Below the pieces are notes generated by a model. It had not been told where the DNA came from, made no database searches, and was given only the letters and a program-made list of their open reading frames with translations. A DNA stretch of 64,000 bases from Lentilactobacillus curieae (GTDB lineage: Bacteria > Bacillota > Bacilli > Lactobacillales > Lactobacillaceae). The stretch lies in contig NZ_CP018906.1 of NCBI RefSeq assembly GCF_000785105.2, forward strand, positions 806,001 through 870,000, in the 5' to 3' direction. The translations under genes were made by a program, and so were the position numbers. Below are positions 1,931-64,000 of this stretch, piece after piece. How positions within the stretch are numbered: position 1 is the first letter of the stretch; every line of letters starts with the position of its first letter.

Positions 1931-2938
1931 TTATTCTTTATAATTATCTTCACCCATCAATCGTTTTAAACGATCAATTCGTTCATCCAGAGGCGGATGC
2001 GTGTCAAACATTTTTAGAATAAATGGAGTCTTTCCATTCTTTTTAATTGGTTCATTGATATATAAAGCTGCACTCGAAGCGTCTGCCTTTTTCATAGGAG
2101 TGGAATCATTTTTAAGTACTTCTAAGGCGTTAATTAATCCTTGTGGATCTCTGGTTAAATTAACCCCAGAAACGTCTGCTAGTGATTCACGTTCCCGAGA
2201 AACGGCAAACTGGAGGACTTGCGCGATTGGAACACCAATGATCCTGATAATCCAGCCACCAATCCAGATGATTACCCCAAACGCAATCATTCCCATCACG
2301 AAGGCCAATCCGCTCTTATTATCATCACTATCACGACTACCAAAGCTCATCCAACTGGCATTTCTCATTAGTCCAGCACCAGCAATAATTAGAACTGTCC
2401 CTGCGCCTGCAATAAAAGTTGTTAAGGCAACAGTAATTGATGACACCCTAATATCGTAGTTTTTAATATGTGAGATTTCATGGGCAATTACCCCTTCGAG
2501 TTCCTCACGGTTCATCATTAAACGTAACCCTTTAGTCACCGCAACTGCTGCGTGCTTAGGGTCGCGCCCGGTTGCGAACGCATTAGGTGCGTCTTCGTTG
2601 ATCATGTAAATATCCGGAACAGGAATATTCGCAGCCATCGAAAGGTCAGTCACGATATTAAATAGTTGCTGATCATCAGACTCTTGGATTTTAACCGCAT
2701 TACTCCCACGCATTAAAATATTTGTTACTCCCATATACGTGAAGAATGCATATATAACAGCCGCAACCAAAAAACCGGCCATTGTGTACAATGCGACATT
2801 TAAATCAAACACCTCTTGGCGAGACGCAAAGATGCACCCAATCAGAAAACCAATAACGGAAACAACCACGAGAAAGGCAACCAGAACAAACCAAGTTCGT
2901 CTTCTATTTTGAGAAACCTGCTTGCTAATAGTTTCCAT
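1931..2938 (-). CDS. htpX: Membrane zinc metalloprotease HtpX (M48)
   Basis: A 335-residue integral membrane protease that degrades damaged or misfolded membrane proteins. It has two N-terminal membrane segments (about residues 15-37 and 48-72), the zinc motif HEISH near residue 153, a pair of hydrophobic segments in the middle, and the third zinc ligand region SRERESLADVSG. A GGAG ribosome site precedes the ATG. It lies 20 bases after lemA, and lemA-htpX is a common two-gene unit in lactobacilli. It ends at a shared bidirectional terminator. Confident at family level; the stress signal controlling it is not visible. Confidence 0.92.
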   Translation of the reverse strand: METISKQVSQNRRRTWFVLVAFLVVVSVIGFLIGCIFASRQEVFDLNVALYTMAGFLVAAVIYAFFTYMGVTNILMRGSNAVKIQESDDQQLFNIVTDLSMAANIPVPDIYMINEDAPNAFATGRDPKHAAVAVTKGLRLMMNREELEGVIAHEISHIKNYDIRVSSITVALTTFIAGAGTVLIIAGAGLMRNASWMSFGSRDSDDNKSGLAFVMGMIAFGVIIWIGGWIIRIIGVPIAQVLQFAVSRERESLADVSGVNLTRDPQGLINALEVLKNDSTPMKKADASSAALYINEPIKKNGKTPFILKMFDTHPPLDERIDRLKRLMGEDNYKE

Positions 2939-2958
2939 TTATTTGCCAATCTCCTTAA

Positions 2959-3507
2959 TTAAAATTTCATTTGTGGGACTTCTTTTGCTGATTCAGGAAC
3001 TTGCAAGAATTCTTTTTGCTTAAAGTTACCTAATTTAGCCACAAGATTGCTAGGGAATGATTGAAGTTTGTTATTCAATTCCATTACGTTAGCGTTGTAA
3101 TTTTGACGAGAGAATGAAATCTTATTTTCAGTGTTGGCCAGCTCTTCTTGAAGGCTCATAAAGTTTTGGTTTGCCTTTAAGTCAGGATAGTTTTCTGAAA
3201 CAGCGAACAAATGGTTCAGTGTATCAGTCAGCTGGTTATCAGCCTTGACCTTGTCGCCCAAACTTGCATTTGGATCTGAAATTTGGGTTCTCATTTCAGT
3301 AACCTTTGCTAGAGTTTCCTTTTCATGAGCAGCATATCCCTTAACCGTTTCCAGCAAGTTGGGTAATAAGTCAGCCCGTCGTTGAAGCTGAACATCAATT
3401 TGACTTTCAGCCTCATCGACTAAGTTTCTTTGGCGAACTAGTCCGTTATACATCATAACGACTGCTAACACTACTAGCACGACAATCACAATTATCGCAA
3501 TTAACAT
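2959..3507 (-). CDS. lemA: LemA family membrane-anchored coiled-coil protein
   Basis: A 182-residue LemA protein: one N-terminal membrane anchor (about residues 2-20) with a very short extracellular tip, then a long helical body starting LVRQRNLVDEAESQIDVQL and containing the family motif RADLLPNLLETVKGYA. LemA proteins are usually encoded next to HtpX or other membrane proteases, as here; their biochemical role is unknown. I chose the ATG at 3507, six bases after GGGAGGT, not the TTG at 3522, which overlaps that ribosome site. Confidence 0.9.
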   Translation of the reverse strand: MLIAIIVIVVLVVLAVVMMYNGLVRQRNLVDEAESQIDVQLQRRADLLPNLLETVKGYAAHEKETLAKVTEMRTQISDPNASLGDKVKADNQLTDTLNHLFAVSENYPDLKANQNFMSLQEELANTENKISFSRQNYNANVMELNNKLQSFPSNLVAKLGNFKQKEFLQVPESAKEVPQMKF

Positions 3508-7417: not shown

Positions 7418-8527
7418 TTAGTAATGTACTTTTACAAGTTTTGCATGTTTTACTGCTTCAATATCCTTAGTTCCAGCAAGTTGCATGTCAATTTCCAACT
7501 CATGATTGAGCTCTTCAAACACTGATTGAACTCCTTGAGCACCACCAAGTGCTAAACCATAAATTACTGGGCGACCCATTGCAACTAAGTCTGCCCCGCT
7601 TGCCAATGCTTTGAATACGTGTGATCCTCGACGAATACCACTATCAAAAATAATTGGTACTTGGTGATTAACGGCCTTAGCCACATCTTCAAGAACATCA
7701 AATGAAGCTGGTCCACCGTTCAATTGACGACCACCATGGTTTGAAACGTAGATTCCCTTTGCGCCAGCACCAATTGCAAGTAATGCATCTTCTGGTGATT
7801 CGATTCCTTTAACAATAACAGGAAGATCAGTATAATCAGCAATCCGTTTTACATCATCTGCATTAATCTTTTGAGCAGCTGATGCGTAGATTTCTTCGAT
7901 TCCTTTACCTTCACCGTCCCCTTCAGAGAACTTAGTCAAGTTTGCCATTGGAATTGGGAATTGGAAGTTATTGATAATGTCAGCTTCACGATAACCATCA
8001 ACAGTAGCATCAACAGTCAAAATGATTGCCTTAACGCCAGCTTTTTTAGCCTCATCTAGCAAACTTTCATTAAAGTCCCAATCTTTACTCATATAAAGTT
8101 GGAAAAATTGAGGTGCCCCTTTACCGGCAGCAGCGGTATCTGCAATTGAAGTTGATGAGTAAGTACTTTGTGCCATCAATGCACCAGCAGCAGCAACACC
8201 TTCAGCAGTTGCCTCTTCACCGCGTGAGTGTGCAAGACCTTGCGCAGCGGTTGGAGCCATCATAATTGGAGTTTTAAGATCTAATCCAAATACCTTAGTG
8301 GCAGTAGATGGGTTTTCCATATCAGTTAACGCACGGGGAACAATCTGTACGTGATTAAAAGCTTCTGAGTTATGGTTAAGTGTCCATTCATCTTCAGAAC
8401 CACCAACAATATAACCAAATCCACCAGTTGGGATAATCTTTTTAGCTTCTGCCTCCAAAGAAGGTAGATTTAAAATGTTCAATTTTTCTTCACGGTCACT
8501 TTGTTCATATCCATTTACTACAGTCAT
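7418..8527 (-). CDS. L-lactate oxidase (FMN-dependent alpha-hydroxy-acid oxidase)
   Basis: A 369-residue flavoprotein of the alpha-hydroxy-acid oxidase family. It most resembles L-lactate oxidases, which turn lactate and O2 into pyruvate and H2O2. The active-site signature SNHGGRQLNGGPAS carries the catalytic His and the substrate-binding Arg; the FMN-binding segments PTAAQGLAH, QLYMSKDW, and DSGIRRGSHVFKALASGA are present. The start at 8527 has AAAGGAG at good spacing. It stands alone behind its own promoter, with an Rrf2 regulator gene just upstream. Its H2O2 output could be handled by peroxidases such as the ahpC product encoded at 20.9 kb. Lactate 2-monooxygenase is a less likely alternative. 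Confidence 0.85.
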   Translation of the reverse strand: MTVVNGYEQSDREEKLNILNLPSLEAEAKKIIPTGGFGYIVGGSEDEWTLNHNSEAFNHVQIVPRALTDMENPSTATKVFGLDLKTPIMMAPTAAQGLAHSRGEEATAEGVAAAGALMAQSTYSSTSIADTAAAGKGAPQFFQLYMSKDWDFNESLLDEAKKAGVKAIILTVDATVDGYREADIINNFQFPIPMANLTKFSEGDGEGKGIEEIYASAAQKINADDVKRIADYTDLPVIVKGIESPEDALLAIGAGAKGIYVSNHGGRQLNGGPASFDVLEDVAKAVNHQVPIIFDSGIRRGSHVFKALASGADLVAMGRPVIYGLALGGAQGVQSVFEELNHELEIDMQLAGTKDIEAVKHAKLVKVHY

Positions 8528-48838: not shown

Positions 48839-50182
48839 TTATCCAAGTCCCTTTTTGAGATCGGTAATTTCTTTTCTCAAATCGGTATCGATTTTTATCT
48901 TCTCGGCAATTTTTTCATAAGCATGAATGACGGTTGTGTGATCCTTACCACCAAATTCCTTACCAATTTTTGGAAGTGAGTTGTTAGTAAGTTCTCTTGC
49001 CAAGTACATTGCGATTTGTCTTGGCATTACGATTGATGCTAATCGTTTCTTGCCCTTCAAATCGTTAACTGAAACGTGGAAGTAATCTGCAACTTTACTT
49101 TGAATATCTACGATACTAAGTTGGTGACTTTTTGTTTCTAATTTTAATCCTTTAAGCGCTTCATAAGCTAAATCTGTGGTAATTGGTTCGCCCTTCAATT
49201 TTGAATATGCTTGAACTCTAGATAGGACTCCCTCTAATTCACGAACGTTTGAATCAACCTGATTTGCTATGTAATTGATGGTTTCACTAGGGATTTCTAG
49301 GTTATCAATTTCAGCCTTGTTTTGGAGGATTGCAATTCTAGTTTCTAAATCTGGCGGGGTAATGTCGACTGGGAGGCCCCATGCAAATCTCGATACCAAT
49401 CGGTCTTGGAGCTTGGGGATTTCTTGTGGTACCCGATCTGAAGTTAGGACGATTTGTTTATCATCGTTATATAGATCGTTAAATGTATGGAAGAACTCTT
49501 CTTGAGTTGCTTCTTTATCGGCGAAGAATTGAATATCATCAACCATTAAAATATCAACGTTGCGATACTCCTGACGAAATTCTTCAGTTTGATTGGTTTG
49601 GATTGCGTTGATGAAGTCGTTAGTAAAAGCTTCACTAGTTACGTATTTAACCTTAGCATCTGGTCGGTCAGCAACTAACTTGTTACCAATTGCTTGCATC
49701 AAATGCGTTTTTCCTAAACCAACACCACCATAGAAGAATAATGGGTTGTACAACTTTCCGGGCTCTTCGGAAACGATTAGCGCTGCTGCATGAGCCATTT
49801 GGTTACCCTTACCAATGATGAAAGTATCAAATGTATAGTGAGGGTTTAAATGTCCTTCCTTACTAAATGCATAACTTTCTGGTTTTTTCTTGGCCTCAGG
49901 AATATCTGATTTATCATCCGTGCTGGCTTTAACATCGGAATCTAGCACAAATTTTGGTTCAATATTTCCCTTTGTGAGTACAAACGCGTACTCAATTAGG
50001 TTTGGTGCAAGTTGTTTTTCCCAATAATCACGATGCAATTCAGATGGTAAAGATAACGTGAGTGTCGAACCATCAAAGTTAACTGGTTTTACAGGTTCGA
50101 TCCAGGTTTCGAATGAAAGCTTTGGCGTGTTTGCTCTGAACTTCTCGCTAAGTTCGGACCATAGAGCTTCTTTATCTGGCAC
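48839..50182 (-). CDS. dnaA: Chromosomal replication initiator DnaA
   Basis: A 447-residue AAA+ initiator. Domain I is at about 1-80, a short linker follows, and the AAA+ domain has Walker A GGVGLGKTHLMQAIG (about 153) and Walker B VDILMVDDIQFF. Domain IV has the DNA-binding helix-turn-helix and signature GGKDHTTVIHAYEKI. GTG start with GGGGGA ten bases upstream. DnaA boxes on both sides of the gene show that it sits within the origin and probably regulates its own transcription. Confidence 0.98.
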   Translation of the reverse strand: MPDKEALWSELSEKFRANTPKLSFETWIEPVKPVNFDGSTLTLSLPSELHRDYWEKQLAPNLIEYAFVLTKGNIEPKFVLDSDVKASTDDKSDIPEAKKKPESYAFSKEGHLNPHYTFDTFIIGKGNQMAHAAALIVSEEPGKLYNPLFFYGGVGLGKTHLMQAIGNKLVADRPDAKVKYVTSEAFTNDFINAIQTNQTEEFRQEYRNVDILMVDDIQFFADKEATQEEFFHTFNDLYNDDKQIVLTSDRVPQEIPKLQDRLVSRFAWGLPVDITPPDLETRIAILQNKAEIDNLEIPSETINYIANQVDSNVRELEGVLSRVQAYSKLKGEPITTDLAYEALKGLKLETKSHQLSIVDIQSKVADYFHVSVNDLKGKKRLASIVMPRQIAMYLARELTNNSLPKIGKEFGGKDHTTVIHAYEKIAEKIKIDTDLRKEITDLKKGLG

Positions 50183-61848: not shown

Positions 61849-63307
61849 GTGCATTCTCCTCCTCTGAAACTGGGTAAAGTGAATTAATCACGCCCCGAGC
61901 TTTATTATTAAATTCTTGATACTCATATTTAGCAACACTGTCGGCAACGATTCCTGCTCCAGAATGGATAATCAAATGATTACCCTTCCGATAAGCAAGC
62001 CGGATTCCAATACATAAATCAAGGTCACCGTTAAAACCAAGGTAGCCAATCCCACCGCCATAGATTCCCCGTTTGTTATTTTCTAGCTTGGCAATGATTT
62101 GCATTGCGGAAACCTTTGGGGCTCCAGATAACGTACCTGCAGGAAGCACGGAGTCAACGATATCCATAGCAGTGATATCTTTAGCAGCTTGGCTTTCAAT
62201 TACTGAACCTAGGTGCATCACACTCGAAAATTTAAGCAGATTTCTTGCAGAAATTACATTAACTGAGCCAAATTCGCTGACACGCCCAAGGTCATTTCTC
62301 CCTAAATCGATCAGCATATTGTGTTCAGAAAGCTCTTTTTCACTGGTTTGAAGTTCCTTAGCGAGTTGTTGATCCTCGGCAGCGGTTTTTCCTCTGCGTC
62401 TAGTACCAGCCAATGGATATGAAAATAGGCTTTCCTGACGTTTGGTGATCAAGGTTTCTGGGGATGCGCCAACCGATTCAAAATCATCGTGATGAAAATA
62501 AAATTGGTATGGTGAAGGATTTTGGTTAAAGAACCTTCGAGCACTTCCTAACAATGAACCCTTAATTGTTGCCATGTGTGGATTAGATAAAATCAATTGA
62601 AAGATATCGCCATCCACAATGTGCTGCTTAGTGGCAGCTACCTTTTTGCTAAACTCAGCTAATGAAAATTGAAGCTTCAGTGGTGACAATTCTGGAGCTT
62701 TGATTGGTATTTGGGTTGTTGGTGACATAATTCTCTGCTTAAATTTATTAAGCTCAGCGGTTGTCTTTTCGAACAATTCTTCAACCCGACTTGCATTGAC
62801 CAGCTTGATGATCGTTACCTGCTGTGAAGTATGGTTATACGCCACCACAGTTTTAACTAACATTAAGTCGGCATCGGCCAGTTCATGAGGATCTGTCACC
62901 TGGGTAATTGATGCTGTGGTGGCATAACGCGAGTAATCATAGCCAAAGTAACCAACAACTCCACCAGTAAACGGTGGCAGTCCGGCTAACCTTGGTGTGC
63001 GATTTTGCTCAAGTAGATTCTCGACGAAGGGATGTAATGGAGTGGCGGTAGTCTTTAAGTCACCTGTAAAATTATCGATGGTGAGCTTACCATTTCGATA
63101 TGTATAACTAGCCTCTGGATCCACACAAATAAATGTATATCCATCTTCATTTTGTTTAGGCTTACCAGTCATCATAAGTGACGGCTTACCTGCAATCTGA
63201 AATTCTCTCATTATTGAAAGAGCGTCAAAGTTGGTATCCTTAAATTCAATTGTGATTGGTAGTAATGCGTAATCCTGCTTTAGGTTCAGTAAGTTTTCAA
63301 TGTTCAT
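61832..63307 (-). CDS. trpE: Anthranilate synthase component I (chorismate-binding)
   Basis: A 491-residue chorismate-utilising enzyme that with TrpG makes anthranilate, the first step to tryptophan. Chorismate-binding core: GDIFQLILSN, GTRRRGKTAAED, HNMLIDLGRNDLGRV, PAGTLSGAPKVSAMQII and GGGIGYLGFNGD. The usual feedback motif LLES is replaced by SLMMTG near residue 43, so Trp inhibition may differ; PabB is the main alternative. The Trp T-box is the best evidence for TrpE. trpDCFBA are not adjacent on this side. Confidence 0.85.
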   Translation of the reverse strand: MNIENLLNLKQDYALLPITIEFKDTNFDALSIMREFQIAGKPSLMMTGKPKQNEDGYTFICVDPEASYTYRNGKLTIDNFTGDLKTTATPLHPFVENLLEQNRTPRLAGLPPFTGGVVGYFGYDYSRYATTASITQVTDPHELADADLMLVKTVVAYNHTSQQVTIIKLVNASRVEELFEKTTAELNKFKQRIMSPTTQIPIKAPELSPLKLQFSLAEFSKKVAATKQHIVDGDIFQLILSNPHMATIKGSLLGSARRFFNQNPSPYQFYFHHDDFESVGASPETLITKRQESLFSYPLAGTRRRGKTAAEDQQLAKELQTSEKELSEHNMLIDLGRNDLGRVSEFGSVNVISARNLLKFSSVMHLGSVIESQAAKDITAMDIVDSVLPAGTLSGAPKVSAMQIIAKLENNKRGIYGGGIGYLGFNGDLDLCIGIRLAYRKGNHLIIHSGAGIVADSVAKYEYQEFNNKARGVINSLYPVSEEENAHEFSN

Positions 63308-63393
63308 AATGGGTTCCTCCGTTAAATTTAGTAGTTTATCAACTCAACGGAAGTTGCCATCGTCTTTCATAAATCATATAAATTCCTCCTATC

Positions 63394-63434
63394 AAAAAAT
63401 CCGCCCTCACAAAAAAGAAATTGTTAAGGACGGA
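63394..63434 (-). terminator. T-box-controlled terminator before trpE
   Basis: Stem of about 12 bp (63400-63411 with 63422-63434) followed by a T-run on the minus strand. Confidence 0.85.
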
Positions 63435-63670
63435 AATTCCGCGGTGCCACCTTAATTCAGCATTCACTTCAAAAAATAGGAAGATAAATACTGCCCTCAT
63501 GAGATACAATCATATCTCTGACAACTGACGTATGTCGAAACGTTTCCCCGTACTAAAATTTCGGAGGAACCCTCGGTGGTCCATTTAGCTAGCTGCGTTC
63601 GGTTACTTCTCAGCTCCAGTAACTCTCTGTGCGTGCACACTAACCTTGATCTCCACCTCATCGGTTTGAT
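63394..63670 (-). promoter_or_regulatory. T-box leader of trpE-trpG, tryptophan (TGG) specifier
   Basis: On the minus strand the Stem I base has the kink-turn GATGA (63658-63662) opposite GA beside the GGTGG/CCACC helix. One base above that helix the specifier loop reads TGG (63581-63583) followed by A. The T-box sequence AAGGTGGCACCGCGG lies at 63439-63453, followed by a terminator TCCGTCCTTAACA / TGTGAGGGCGGA and six T (63394-63434). Uncharged tRNA-Trp would turn on the pair. Confidence 0.92.
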
Positions 63671-63752
63671 GGGCATGTAAATTTATATTGGGAATAAGAT
63701 ACGAGTTTTATGAGAAAAAGTCAACCGATAATTAGAAAATTAATTTTAGATG

Positions 63753-63781
63753 TTGACAATTGTCCGTCACAGGACTAGACT
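63753..63781 (+). promoter_or_regulatory. Promoter of the plus-strand leader at the right edge
   Basis: TTGACA (63753-63758), 17-base spacer, TAGACT (63776-63781); start near 63788, directed away from trpE. Confidence 0.8.
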
Positions 63782-63822
63782 TCAAAACAATTAAATTAAA
63801 ACTTTAACAGGAGATTCTCATT

Positions 63823-63876
63823 ATGCAAACTAAACCACTAGCATTTTCACAGTCTTATTATTTTTGGCCACGCTAG
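63823..63876 (+). CDS. 17-residue aromatic leader peptide (attenuator)
   Basis: ACAGGAG (63807-63813) precedes the ATG by nine bases. The product is MQTKPLAFSQSYYFWPR: two Tyr, two Phe and one Trp in 17 residues, with Tyr-Tyr-Phe-Trp in a row just before the stop. This is the pattern of a ribosome-sensed attenuator for aromatic amino-acid genes. The stop codon sits inside the left arm of the first downstream hairpin, so ribosome position can decide folding. The regulated gene lies beyond the window. Confidence 0.75.
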   Translation: MQTKPLAFSQSYYFWPR

Positions 63877-63925
63877 TGTCTACGACGTACAAGTTGCAGG
63901 CACTGTCTACAACTTGTGCGGCCAA
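63865..63925 (+). promoter_or_regulatory. Attenuator hairpin overlapping the leader peptide's 3' end
   Basis: Outer pairing TGGCC (63865-63869) with GGCCA (63920-63924), starting in the Trp codon of the peptide, and inner pairing ACAAGTTG (63889-63896) with CAACTTGT (63910-63917). Confidence 0.65.
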
Positions 63926-63946
63926 GGTTTGTTAAGCTCAATTATT

Positions 63947-63987
63947 GGTCACACAGTATTGATTGAACACTGTGGGGCCTTATTTTT
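63947..63987 (+). terminator. Attenuator terminator after the leader peptide
   Basis: GGTCACACAGT (63947-63957) pairs with ACTGTGGGGCC (63969-63979; one G-U pair and a bulge), followed by TTATTTTTT. Confidence 0.8.
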
Positions 63988-64000
63988 TACCCAAATTTCC

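Follow-up and report, generated by a model that had tools for sequence, protein, structure and literature searches.

A candidate ribosome-mediated attenuator with aromatic codons upstream of aroF-aroB in Lentilactobacillus curieae and other Lactobacillaceae

INTRODUCTION

Close to the 3′ end of the 64,000-nucleotide stretch of the Lentilactobacillus curieae chromosome that we analysed (hereafter the window), a very short ORF containing a run of aromatic codons is followed by a series of potential hairpins. The question raised by this locus is whether these elements form a genetic switch and, if so, what the switch senses, which hairpin terminates transcription and which genes are controlled. 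A sequence-only reading of the window had proposed a peptide-coding attenuator responsive to aromatic amino acids, possibly of an undescribed class, in which a first hairpin competes with a terminator. We followed up this proposal by extending the sequence beyond the window and by comparing the leader with those of relatives.

RESULTS

Organization of the leader locus in L. curieae

The promoter, the Shine–Dalgarno sequence, the ORF, its aromatic run, the first hairpin and the hairpin with a U-run (hereafter T1) that the sequence-only reading had described are all where it had seen them. On the forward strand, a promoter-like site (63753–63781), read from the sequence as TTGACA (63753–63758), a 17-base spacer and TAGACT (63776–63781), is followed by the Shine–Dalgarno sequence AGGAG (63809–63813) and by the leader ORF (63823–63876), which starts with the ATG at 63823, ends with the TAG at 63876 and encodes MQTKPLAFSQSYYFWPR. 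Its putative regulatory codons, TAT TAT TTT TGG (Tyr-Tyr-Phe-Trp), lie at 63856–63867. Similar promoter-like boxes are seen by eye, uncounted, upstream of the congener leaders, and a Shine–Dalgarno-like site with an ATG is present in 19 of the 20 congeners.

The 63790–63989 segment folds at −49.5 kcal/mol (z −3.0; 1 of 200 shuffles equally low), and folding, sequence alignment and a segment-swap test (see below) point to the following elements, all on the forward strand. P0 would pair the start-codon region (63812–63832) with 63925–63944 and thereby mask the start codon. P1 would pair segment a, TTGGCC (63864–63869, over the Phe, Trp and Pro codons), with GGCCAA (63920–63925). Hairpin HA (segments b and c, 63874–63905) starts at the leader stop codon and is an alternative to hairpin P2 (segments c and d, 63889–63917), in which 63889–63896 pairs with 63910–63917. 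Segments d/e (63913–63925), which would become available on ribosome stalling, can pair with 63945–63957 to form AT1. T1 (segments f and g, 63947–63979) pairs 63947–63957 with 63969–63979 and is followed by TTATTTTTT; its 3′ arm (segment g, 63967–63976) can also pair with the 5′ arm of a further hairpin, T2, to form the candidate antiterminator AT2. T2 (segments h and i, 64000–64025, i.e. 1001–1026 of L002, the stretch that runs past the window) consists of CCCGCAGTGAAAACTCTCACTGCGGG followed by TTTTTATTT; it begins 20 bases after T1, is stronger than T1 and has just its first base, 64000, in the window. In the L. curieae leader, P0 is weak (−7.2 kcal/mol) and P1 is short.

Extending the sequence also gave access to the genes downstream. 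The first, aroF (336 codons, forward strand, 1064–2074 of L002), starts at the 63rd base past the window and is overlapped by aroB (2074–3159, same strand). The aroF product matches PF00793 (E 1.7e-74) and scores above the TIGR01361 and NF006421 cut-offs, and the aroB product scores above that of TIGR01357. DAHP synthase, the enzyme encoded by aroF, catalyses the first step of the shikimate pathway. The gene that follows the leader is thus indeed one of aromatic metabolism, a point that the sequence-only reading, confined to the window, had to leave aside.

The leader peptide and its aromatic core

Among the 3281 start-to-stop frames of 8–40 codons in the window (both strands, nested starts included), 231 have a Shine–Dalgarno-like site, and a run of at least four aromatic residues is found in just two of these 231, namely the leader ORF and a frame at 49850. 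The peptide is also kept in relatives, both within Lentilactobacillus, where the sequences include MQTKPLAFSQSYYFWPR, MIKINSKINRFYYYWFV, MMKLNANLNRFSYYWPL and MQTNFCNLVQYYYWSR, and in other genera, so that the conservation of the aromatic core on which the earlier proposal hinged is borne out. In 62 leader peptides from ten genera, Tyr occurs at least twice in all 62, Phe in all 62 and Trp in 61, the peptide of leader L073 being the one that lacks Trp. Aromatic residues occupy 67% of the last eight positions versus 2% elsewhere, part of the former figure resulting from the search itself as the search model covers the last aromatic codons; the frame, the start and the 5′ codons of the ORF are free of this selection. 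Within the ORF, the alignment of the 19 intact congeners has just gaps of 3 and 9 bases, while gaps of other lengths occur as well in the non-coding part of the leader. Judging from these comparisons, the leader peptide is probably translated.

One leader, L022, lies at a contig end and was excluded from the peptide counts: it contains an open aromatic frame (...INRYYYYWFR) without an ATG. In this leader (2550–2786, minus strand), the start codon is not ATG and the Shine–Dalgarno sequence is altered, and one P0 pair is kept by a two-sided change.

The C-terminal part of the peptide is conserved and that of L. curieae ends with WPR, two features that recall nascent-chain arrest, i.e. a TnaC-like mechanism in which the peptide would stall the ribosome from within the tunnel, the co-effector being a drug or an aromatic amino acid. 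The sequence-only reading had taken the Trp-Pro pair as a hint of this kind. Arrest peptides of the TnaC type depend on invariant residues, for example a conserved Pro close to the stop codon, but WP is found in just 6 of the 62 peptides, one of them outside the core, and the hint did not survive the comparison. Furthermore, the core residues Y, F, W and S are arranged differently from one leader to another (FSYYW, YYYYW, YYFW, YYYYQPR, FYSYW), with Ser interrupting the aromatic run in some of them (FSYYW, FYSYW), and such variation fits codons that are counted rather than a fixed contact with the tunnel. Finally, the controlled genes are biosynthetic, and their induction by an excess of aromatic compounds would make little sense. 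Nascent-chain arrest is hence a very improbable explanation of this leader, and an attenuator read by the ribosome at the aromatic codons accounts better for the variable core.

T2 rather than T1 is probably the main terminator

The earlier proposal assigned termination to T1. This assignment was correct as regards the hairpin and its U-run, which are both present in L. curieae, but not as regards a universal terminator: of 63 leaders, 33 have a U-run after T1, L. curieae included, and 30 lack it, the latter comprising four congeners and all 13 leaders of one genus (g37), among others, so that T1 was rejected as the terminator common to all. A hairpin followed by a U-run, T2, was picked 14 to 65 bases past T1 in 63 of 63 leaders, with a mean of −22.1 kcal/mol (the picking rule demands a T-run; it made a wrong pick for L073, for which T2 was set by hand). 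When the same rule was applied to 144 shuffled stretches, it returned nothing in 84 of them, and 6 gave a hairpin that reached the strength of the weakest real T2; for the 24 leaders of this control, the mean was −21.9 kcal/mol for the real T2 versus −3.0 kcal/mol for the shuffled stretches. By this rule, a predicted intrinsic terminator lies between the leader ORF and the first gene in all 63 leaders. As judged from these sequences, T2 is probably the terminator present throughout and T1 is probably not the main one; given the counts of U-runs after T1 and T2, we infer that T1 acts mainly as a hairpin that withholds the antiterminator strand. In L. curieae, where the U-run is present, T1 is possibly an auxiliary terminator as well.

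These counts also bear on the simpler attenuator drawn in the sequence-only reading, in which T1 terminates transcription and GGCC (63920–63923), once freed, pairs with GGCC (63976–63979) at the base of T1. The TTATTTTTT stretch after T1 and both GGCC motifs do exist in L. curieae, and slightly more than half of the leaders have the U-run after T1. Yet the GGCC:GGCC pairing is fully possible in just 4 of the 20 congeners and is consequently not the conserved alternative; the freed segment fits the 5′ arm of T1 better. In addition, the complement of the T1 3′ arm is better kept in the 5′ arm of T2 (96.6% of cells) than in that of T1 (84.5%), which also argues against this scheme, as does the presence of T2 with its U-run in every leader. 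This simpler scheme is no more credible to us than nascent-chain arrest, and we retain an attenuator in which T2 is the probable terminator.

Comparative evidence for two alternative sets of helices

RNAalifold, run on the 20 aligned leaders alone, returned P0, P1, P2, T1 and T2. We scored this folded state and the relay state (HA, AT1 and AT2) across the 20 species. In the folded state, 92.0% of the cells are paired and 15 pairs show two-sided changes, versus 8.1 in shuffled alignments (0 of 500 shuffles). In the relay state, 94.0% of the cells are paired, with 5 two-sided pairs versus 2.6 (6 of 500 shuffles) and 12 two-sided cells versus 3.3 (0 of 500). Sliding the arms by 1–3 columns brought the paired fraction down to 31–45% for the folded state and slides of the relay state gave 27–52%, a comparison that favours both structures because L009 alone served as the template for drawing them. 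Neither state exceeds shuffled alignments in its number of further pair types (183 of 500 for the folded state, 151 of 500 for the relay state). Considered individually, P2 (95% of cells paired) has 5 pairs with two-sided changes and P1 (92.6%) has 2; AT1 has none within Lentilactobacillus. T1 is the least perfect helix, with the 84.5% pairing given above, an A-G mismatch in 20 of 20 species and an A-C mismatch in 14 of 20.

Columns 138, 176 and 204 of this alignment (A1) correspond to C63919, A63951 and G63975 of the window. The A at column 176, which belongs to the T1 5′ arm, has no partner in either alternative in any of the 20 congeners, since it faces G in T1 (A-G) and C in AT1 (C-A).

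To examine the alternative pairings beyond the genus, we used a swap test in which the pairing energy of a leader's own segments is compared with that of segments exchanged between species. For AT1 and AT2, 25 of the 63 leaders were hand-picked for their spread over ten genera, and the arms were set by T1, T2 or distance, independently of the pairing tested. The own segments paired better than the swapped ones both for AT2, i.e. the T1 3′ arm with the T2 5′ arm (−16.6 versus −12.6, sd 0.56; 0 of 5000 swaps), and for AT1, i.e. the P2-3′/P1-3′ segment with the T1 5′ arm (−14.9 versus −12.3, sd 0.52; 0 of 5000), while pairs of segments that were not expected to pair gave 1728, 4986 and 674 of 5000. 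Over all 63 leaders, own and cross-genus energies were −17.8 and −12.4 for AT2, and −14.8 and −12.2 for AT1. P0, assayed on 23 hand-picked leaders of the 63, behaved likewise (−10.5 versus −6.8, sd 0.52; 0 of 5000, control 2372 of 5000). The same test applied to HA gave 0 of 5000 for 23 of 24 leaders (L074 has no HA within the offset limit), a result biased by the choice of the HA arms, which were obtained by folding each leader. Another partner considered for GAUUA, the UAAUC over the Asn-Arg codons, was discarded: each of its pairs is possible in 13 to 17 of the 20 species, versus 17 to 20 for P0. On this comparative evidence, AT1 and AT2 would link the peptide codons to T2 as an antiterminator that excludes it.

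A high conservation of the RNA outside the ORF, together with the masking of the start codon by P0, which resembles a regulated ribosome-binding site, could also suggest that the RNA is a riboswitch or is recognized by a regulatory protein, the ORF being incidental or serving only to set the coupling between transcription and translation. The concentration of aromatic residues at the end of the peptide speaks against this explanation, as does the retention of the aromatic codons in different genera despite changes in the RNA sequence. What is conserved includes several helices with compensatory changes. We deem a riboswitch or protein target very improbable and consider the reading of the aromatic codons by a ribosome to be the best explanation, the core being conserved and aroF-aroB lying downstream, which upholds the central idea of the sequence-only reading.

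Proposed mechanism

We think it highly likely that the leader is a ribosome-mediated transcription attenuator of aroF-aroB that senses the supply of charged aromatic tRNA, that of Tyr above all, with Phe and Trp. When the aromatic tRNAs are ample, the ribosome would pass the Tyr, Phe and Trp codons, reach the stop codon, where it would block HA, and leave; after its release, P2 and P1 would close and T1 would form, the 3′ arm of T1 would be consumed and T2 would end transcription. When charged aromatic tRNA is scarce, the ribosome would stall on the aromatic codons, so that P1 is barred and HA can form and open P2. The P2-3′/P1-3′ segment thus freed would pair with the 5′ arm of T1 (AT1), the 3′ arm of T1 would then pair with the 5′ arm of T2 (AT2), T2 would be held off and aroF-aroB would be transcribed. 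P0, once made, would mask the start codon of the leader, so that only an early ribosome could decide. Comparison of the sequences supports the aromatic ORF, the gene context and the P0, P1, P2, T1, T2, AT1 and AT2 pairings; the order of events, the positions of the ribosome, the starvation response and the function of P0 are what we infer.

The position of HA relative to the aromatic codons is compatible with this scheme. Taking HA as the strongest hairpin that starts within 15 bases after the Trp codon (0–15 nt; L021 was scored from its second Trp), its start lies 7 or 8 nt after this codon in 32 of 61 leaders and 3–11 nt after it in 56 of 61; with such a rule, the starts at 13–15 nt may belong to other hairpins. 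Four leaders have a stop codon right after the core Trp, with the hairpin at 6 (L074), 8 (L094 and L100) or 3 nt (L098). Given a footprint of about 16 bases counted from the P site, a ribosome whose A site holds the last Tyr codon would extend about 7 bases past Trp and leave HA free, and one at the stop codon would cover the 5′ arm of HA.

We also computed equilibrium folds of 19 leaders with the ribosome at various positions. At the stage where the T2 5′ arm has been made, placing a ribosome on the first aromatic codon increases AT1 in 17 of 19 leaders and AT2 in 9 of 19, lowering neither of them anywhere, and it lowers T1 in 9 of 19. At this stage, the AT2 mean is 0.61 without ribosome and 0.86 both for a stalled ribosome and for one parked at the stop codon: since the last two are equal, only ribosome release separates the OFF from the ON state in the equilibrium model. 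The HA mean is just 0.43 when the ribosome is stalled. At full length, T2 wins in all states, with means of 0.93 (free RNA), 0.87 (ribosome at the first aromatic codon), 0.92 (at Trp) and 0.88 (at the stop codon). Equilibrium folding alone thus produced no switch from T2 to the antiterminator in these 19 leaders, and the switch, if real, is kinetic, as other attenuators are held to be.

Distribution of the leader in the Lactobacillaceae

aroF is present in 42 of the 60 genomes sampled (L. curieae included) and in 20 of the 24 congeners, and every one of the 20 sampled Lentilactobacillus genomes with this gene has the leader upstream of it. A covariance model, R1, was built from these 20 leaders and spans P1 to T1. 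An exact DNA pattern derived from T1 is found in 16 stretches among 84,980 species genomes, all titled Lentilactobacillus; because it needs exact matches, this pattern is uninformative on distant forms.

Lentilactobacillus is placed in the Lactobacillaceae. Within this family, R1 matches 55 of 301 genomes, from 10 of 40 genera. The 43 leaders collected outside Lentilactobacillus all have an ORF with an aromatic-rich end and all have a start codon (L096 was scored from a TTG upstream of its ATG). They precede aroE-aroF, aroF-aroB, aroE-aroF-aroB, a transketolase gene or, once, aroC; where the stretch was long enough, aroE follows the transketolase gene, and one protein each of transketolase, aroC and aroE was checked against Pfam. 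Transketolase makes erythrose-4-phosphate, a substrate of DAHP synthase.

A second model, R2, built from all 63 leaders (20 + 43), matches 90 of 397 genomes of the family, from 15 of 40 genera; 14 of 395 genomes of the order, 13 of them Lactobacillaceae; and 1 of 398 genomes of the class, L. curieae itself. Within Lentilactobacillus, matches were obtained in 20 of the 24 congeners, and the other 4 have no aroF. Because the filters applied when more than 40 genomes were searched drop weak matches, misses in these searches are no proof of absence. In the alignment A3, 12 matches on the opposite strand of the same loci, with E-values of at least 2.2e-4, were taken as due to chance and a stricter limit was applied. 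We inspected 88 of the 90 family matches (all except those of genomes G1006 and G1033), a match being counted as a leader after inspection of its ORF and gene. A comparable ORF, with a start codon and an aromatic-rich peptide end, is present in 87 of these 88 leaders, even though R1 spans just P1 to T1.

The targets of the 88 leaders are aroF, aroE, transketolase or aroC in 84 cases, an aminotransferase gene in three and an aroB remnant in one. The three aminotransferases (L122, L124 and L125) are nearest to PRK07309, below its cut-off as cut stretches, and the corresponding leader peptides end with YYYFWFF, YYYFYFF and RYYFRFF, respectively. The remaining case (L123, genome G209) is a decayed copy: its leader ORF is intact, the HA/P2 region is lost and an aroB remnant alone lies downstream. 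In another family of the order (L111, genome G413), a Tyr-rich leader, MQNLQLNNAYYYSYFR, matched with an E-value of 3.6e-4; it precedes a gene for a PF04392 ABC substrate-binding protein and has T1-like and T2-like hairpins as seen by eye. Given the weak E-value and the single case, it is just a possible member.

From the sequence comparisons, it is very probable that this leader switches on genes of aromatic amino acid synthesis in lactobacilli under a shortage of Tyr, Phe and Trp. With doubt and confidence in equal measure, we further suggest a switch at the scale of the whole family: an OR gate for Tyr, Phe and Trp, built as a chain of six helices that exclude one another (HA, P2, AT1, T1, AT2 and T2), with a start codon masked so that one pioneer ribosome decides per transcript. 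In bacteria that usually sense uncharged tRNA by means of T-boxes, this single design would have moved between genes for aroF, aroE, transketolase, aroC and aminotransferases, and perhaps to ABC-transporter genes. A translated attenuator of the common aromatic pathway, with matches in 15 of the 40 genera sampled, would fill a gap in the known regulation of Tyr, Phe and Trp synthesis in these food and gut bacteria, and short ORFs upstream of shikimate operons could be named. The natural variants (T1 without a U-run, a stop codon beside Trp, one leader without Trp and one decayed copy) would allow tests of how an attenuator becomes sensitive, keeps its basal read-through low and comes to sense several amino acids.

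Relationship to known regulatory systems

No Rfam amino-acid leader (Trp, His or others) was detected up to an E-value of 10 in the 63300–64000 segment of the window, T2 lying beyond that stretch. On the leader strand there is no match to the T-box family (RF00230) either, the sole meaningful Rfam match being a T-box on the minus strand, and a T-box or another Rfam class was accordingly discarded as the identity of the aromatic leader. The T-box likewise senses uncharged tRNA by antitermination; it differs from the aromatic leader in having no leader peptide. In the literature searched (full text, with few subscription papers), we found no description of an aromatic leader of lactobacilli. The suggestion that this is an undescribed class is therefore right in that neither an Rfam match nor a published description was found, and too strong in that the mechanism is of a known kind: what would be new is the family, the hosts, the target genes, the reading of several aromatic residues, the long relay and the masked start codon.

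By analogy, the leader appears to be built most like the his attenuator, whose segments are named A to F. The his attenuators of Salmonella and Escherichia coli, as far as the available text describes them, share with it a leader peptide with regulatory codons and alternative hairpins, T1 standing in the place of an extra hairpin that is found between the pause hairpin and the terminator and that, according to the accessible part of the study by Elf and Ehrenberg, keeps basal read-through low (PMC1183508). The lactobacillar leader differs by its aromatic instead of His codons, its start codon masked by P0 and its host family. It also resembles the E. coli trp and pheA attenuators, in which, in the sections consulted, a stall at the codons of the end product selects the antiterminator or the terminator (PMC11802643, PMC1183508); these read a single amino acid at a terminal branch, whereas the lactobacillar leader would read Tyr, Phe and Trp ahead of the common shikimate steps, and it has more alternative helices.

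Two leaders located upstream of aroF come closest in terms of target. aroR of Corynebacterium glutamicum is a Phe-Tyr-Phe leader before the DAHP synthase operon (aroF), reported, in the passages available, to be induced under Phe limitation (PMC11802643, PMC4046766). The likeness is drawn from these descriptions; aroR belongs to another phylum, is reported there to be unresponsive to Tyr and has an FYF instead of a YYYW core. uORFC-13-1 of Acholeplasma is a predicted uORF with at least one Phe codon, located before aroF and just upstream of a terminator (PMC8632094); the available part of that report lists 24 sequences from Acholeplasma and environmental DNA and describes neither a Tyr/Trp core nor a two-hairpin relay, so that the lactobacillar leader is set apart from it by description and not by a consensus model. 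In Firmicutes, His leader-peptide attenuators have been predicted (PMC2965389, PMC9413887); those covered by the accessible text concern hisS/hisZ of bacilli, the Bacillus cereus group, the Peptostreptococcaceae and relatives, and the Erysipelotrichales, and are neither from lactobacilli nor aromatic. The sensors reported for lactobacilli, in the portions of the literature seen, are T-boxes, for His genes and many amino acid transporters.

Neighbouring elements

The minus-strand T-box (RF00230) occupies 63423–63670 of the window and precedes divergent trpE-like and trpG/pabA-type ORFs; two distinct tRNA-charging sensors, the aromatic leader on the plus strand and this T-box on the minus strand, thus stand back to back. 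The product of the trpE-like ORF, which lies on the opposite strand and points away from the leader, is a chorismate-binding enzyme that scores below the trpE cut-off. The alignment, read by eye, suggests UGG as the specifier of this T-box. A T-box above the gathering score was found in 2 of the 10 Lentilactobacillus loci scanned (L033 and L035).

Elsewhere in L. curieae, a cluster at about 242–247 kb (L140, L147) contains aroC (PF01264) and aroA (TIGR01356), as well as ORFs that resemble, by eye, chorismate mutase, tyrA and aroK; neither an aromatic leader nor a T-box was found within 1.5 kb upstream of this aroC. A search for prephenate dehydratase (PF00800) in L. curieae gave a best score of 21 bits, below the cut-off. 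A second T-box above the Rfam gathering score lies on the minus strand at 515–759 of the window, and an Rfam match to the RatA antitoxin RNA, barely above its gathering score, occurs at 7659–7751 of locus L045.
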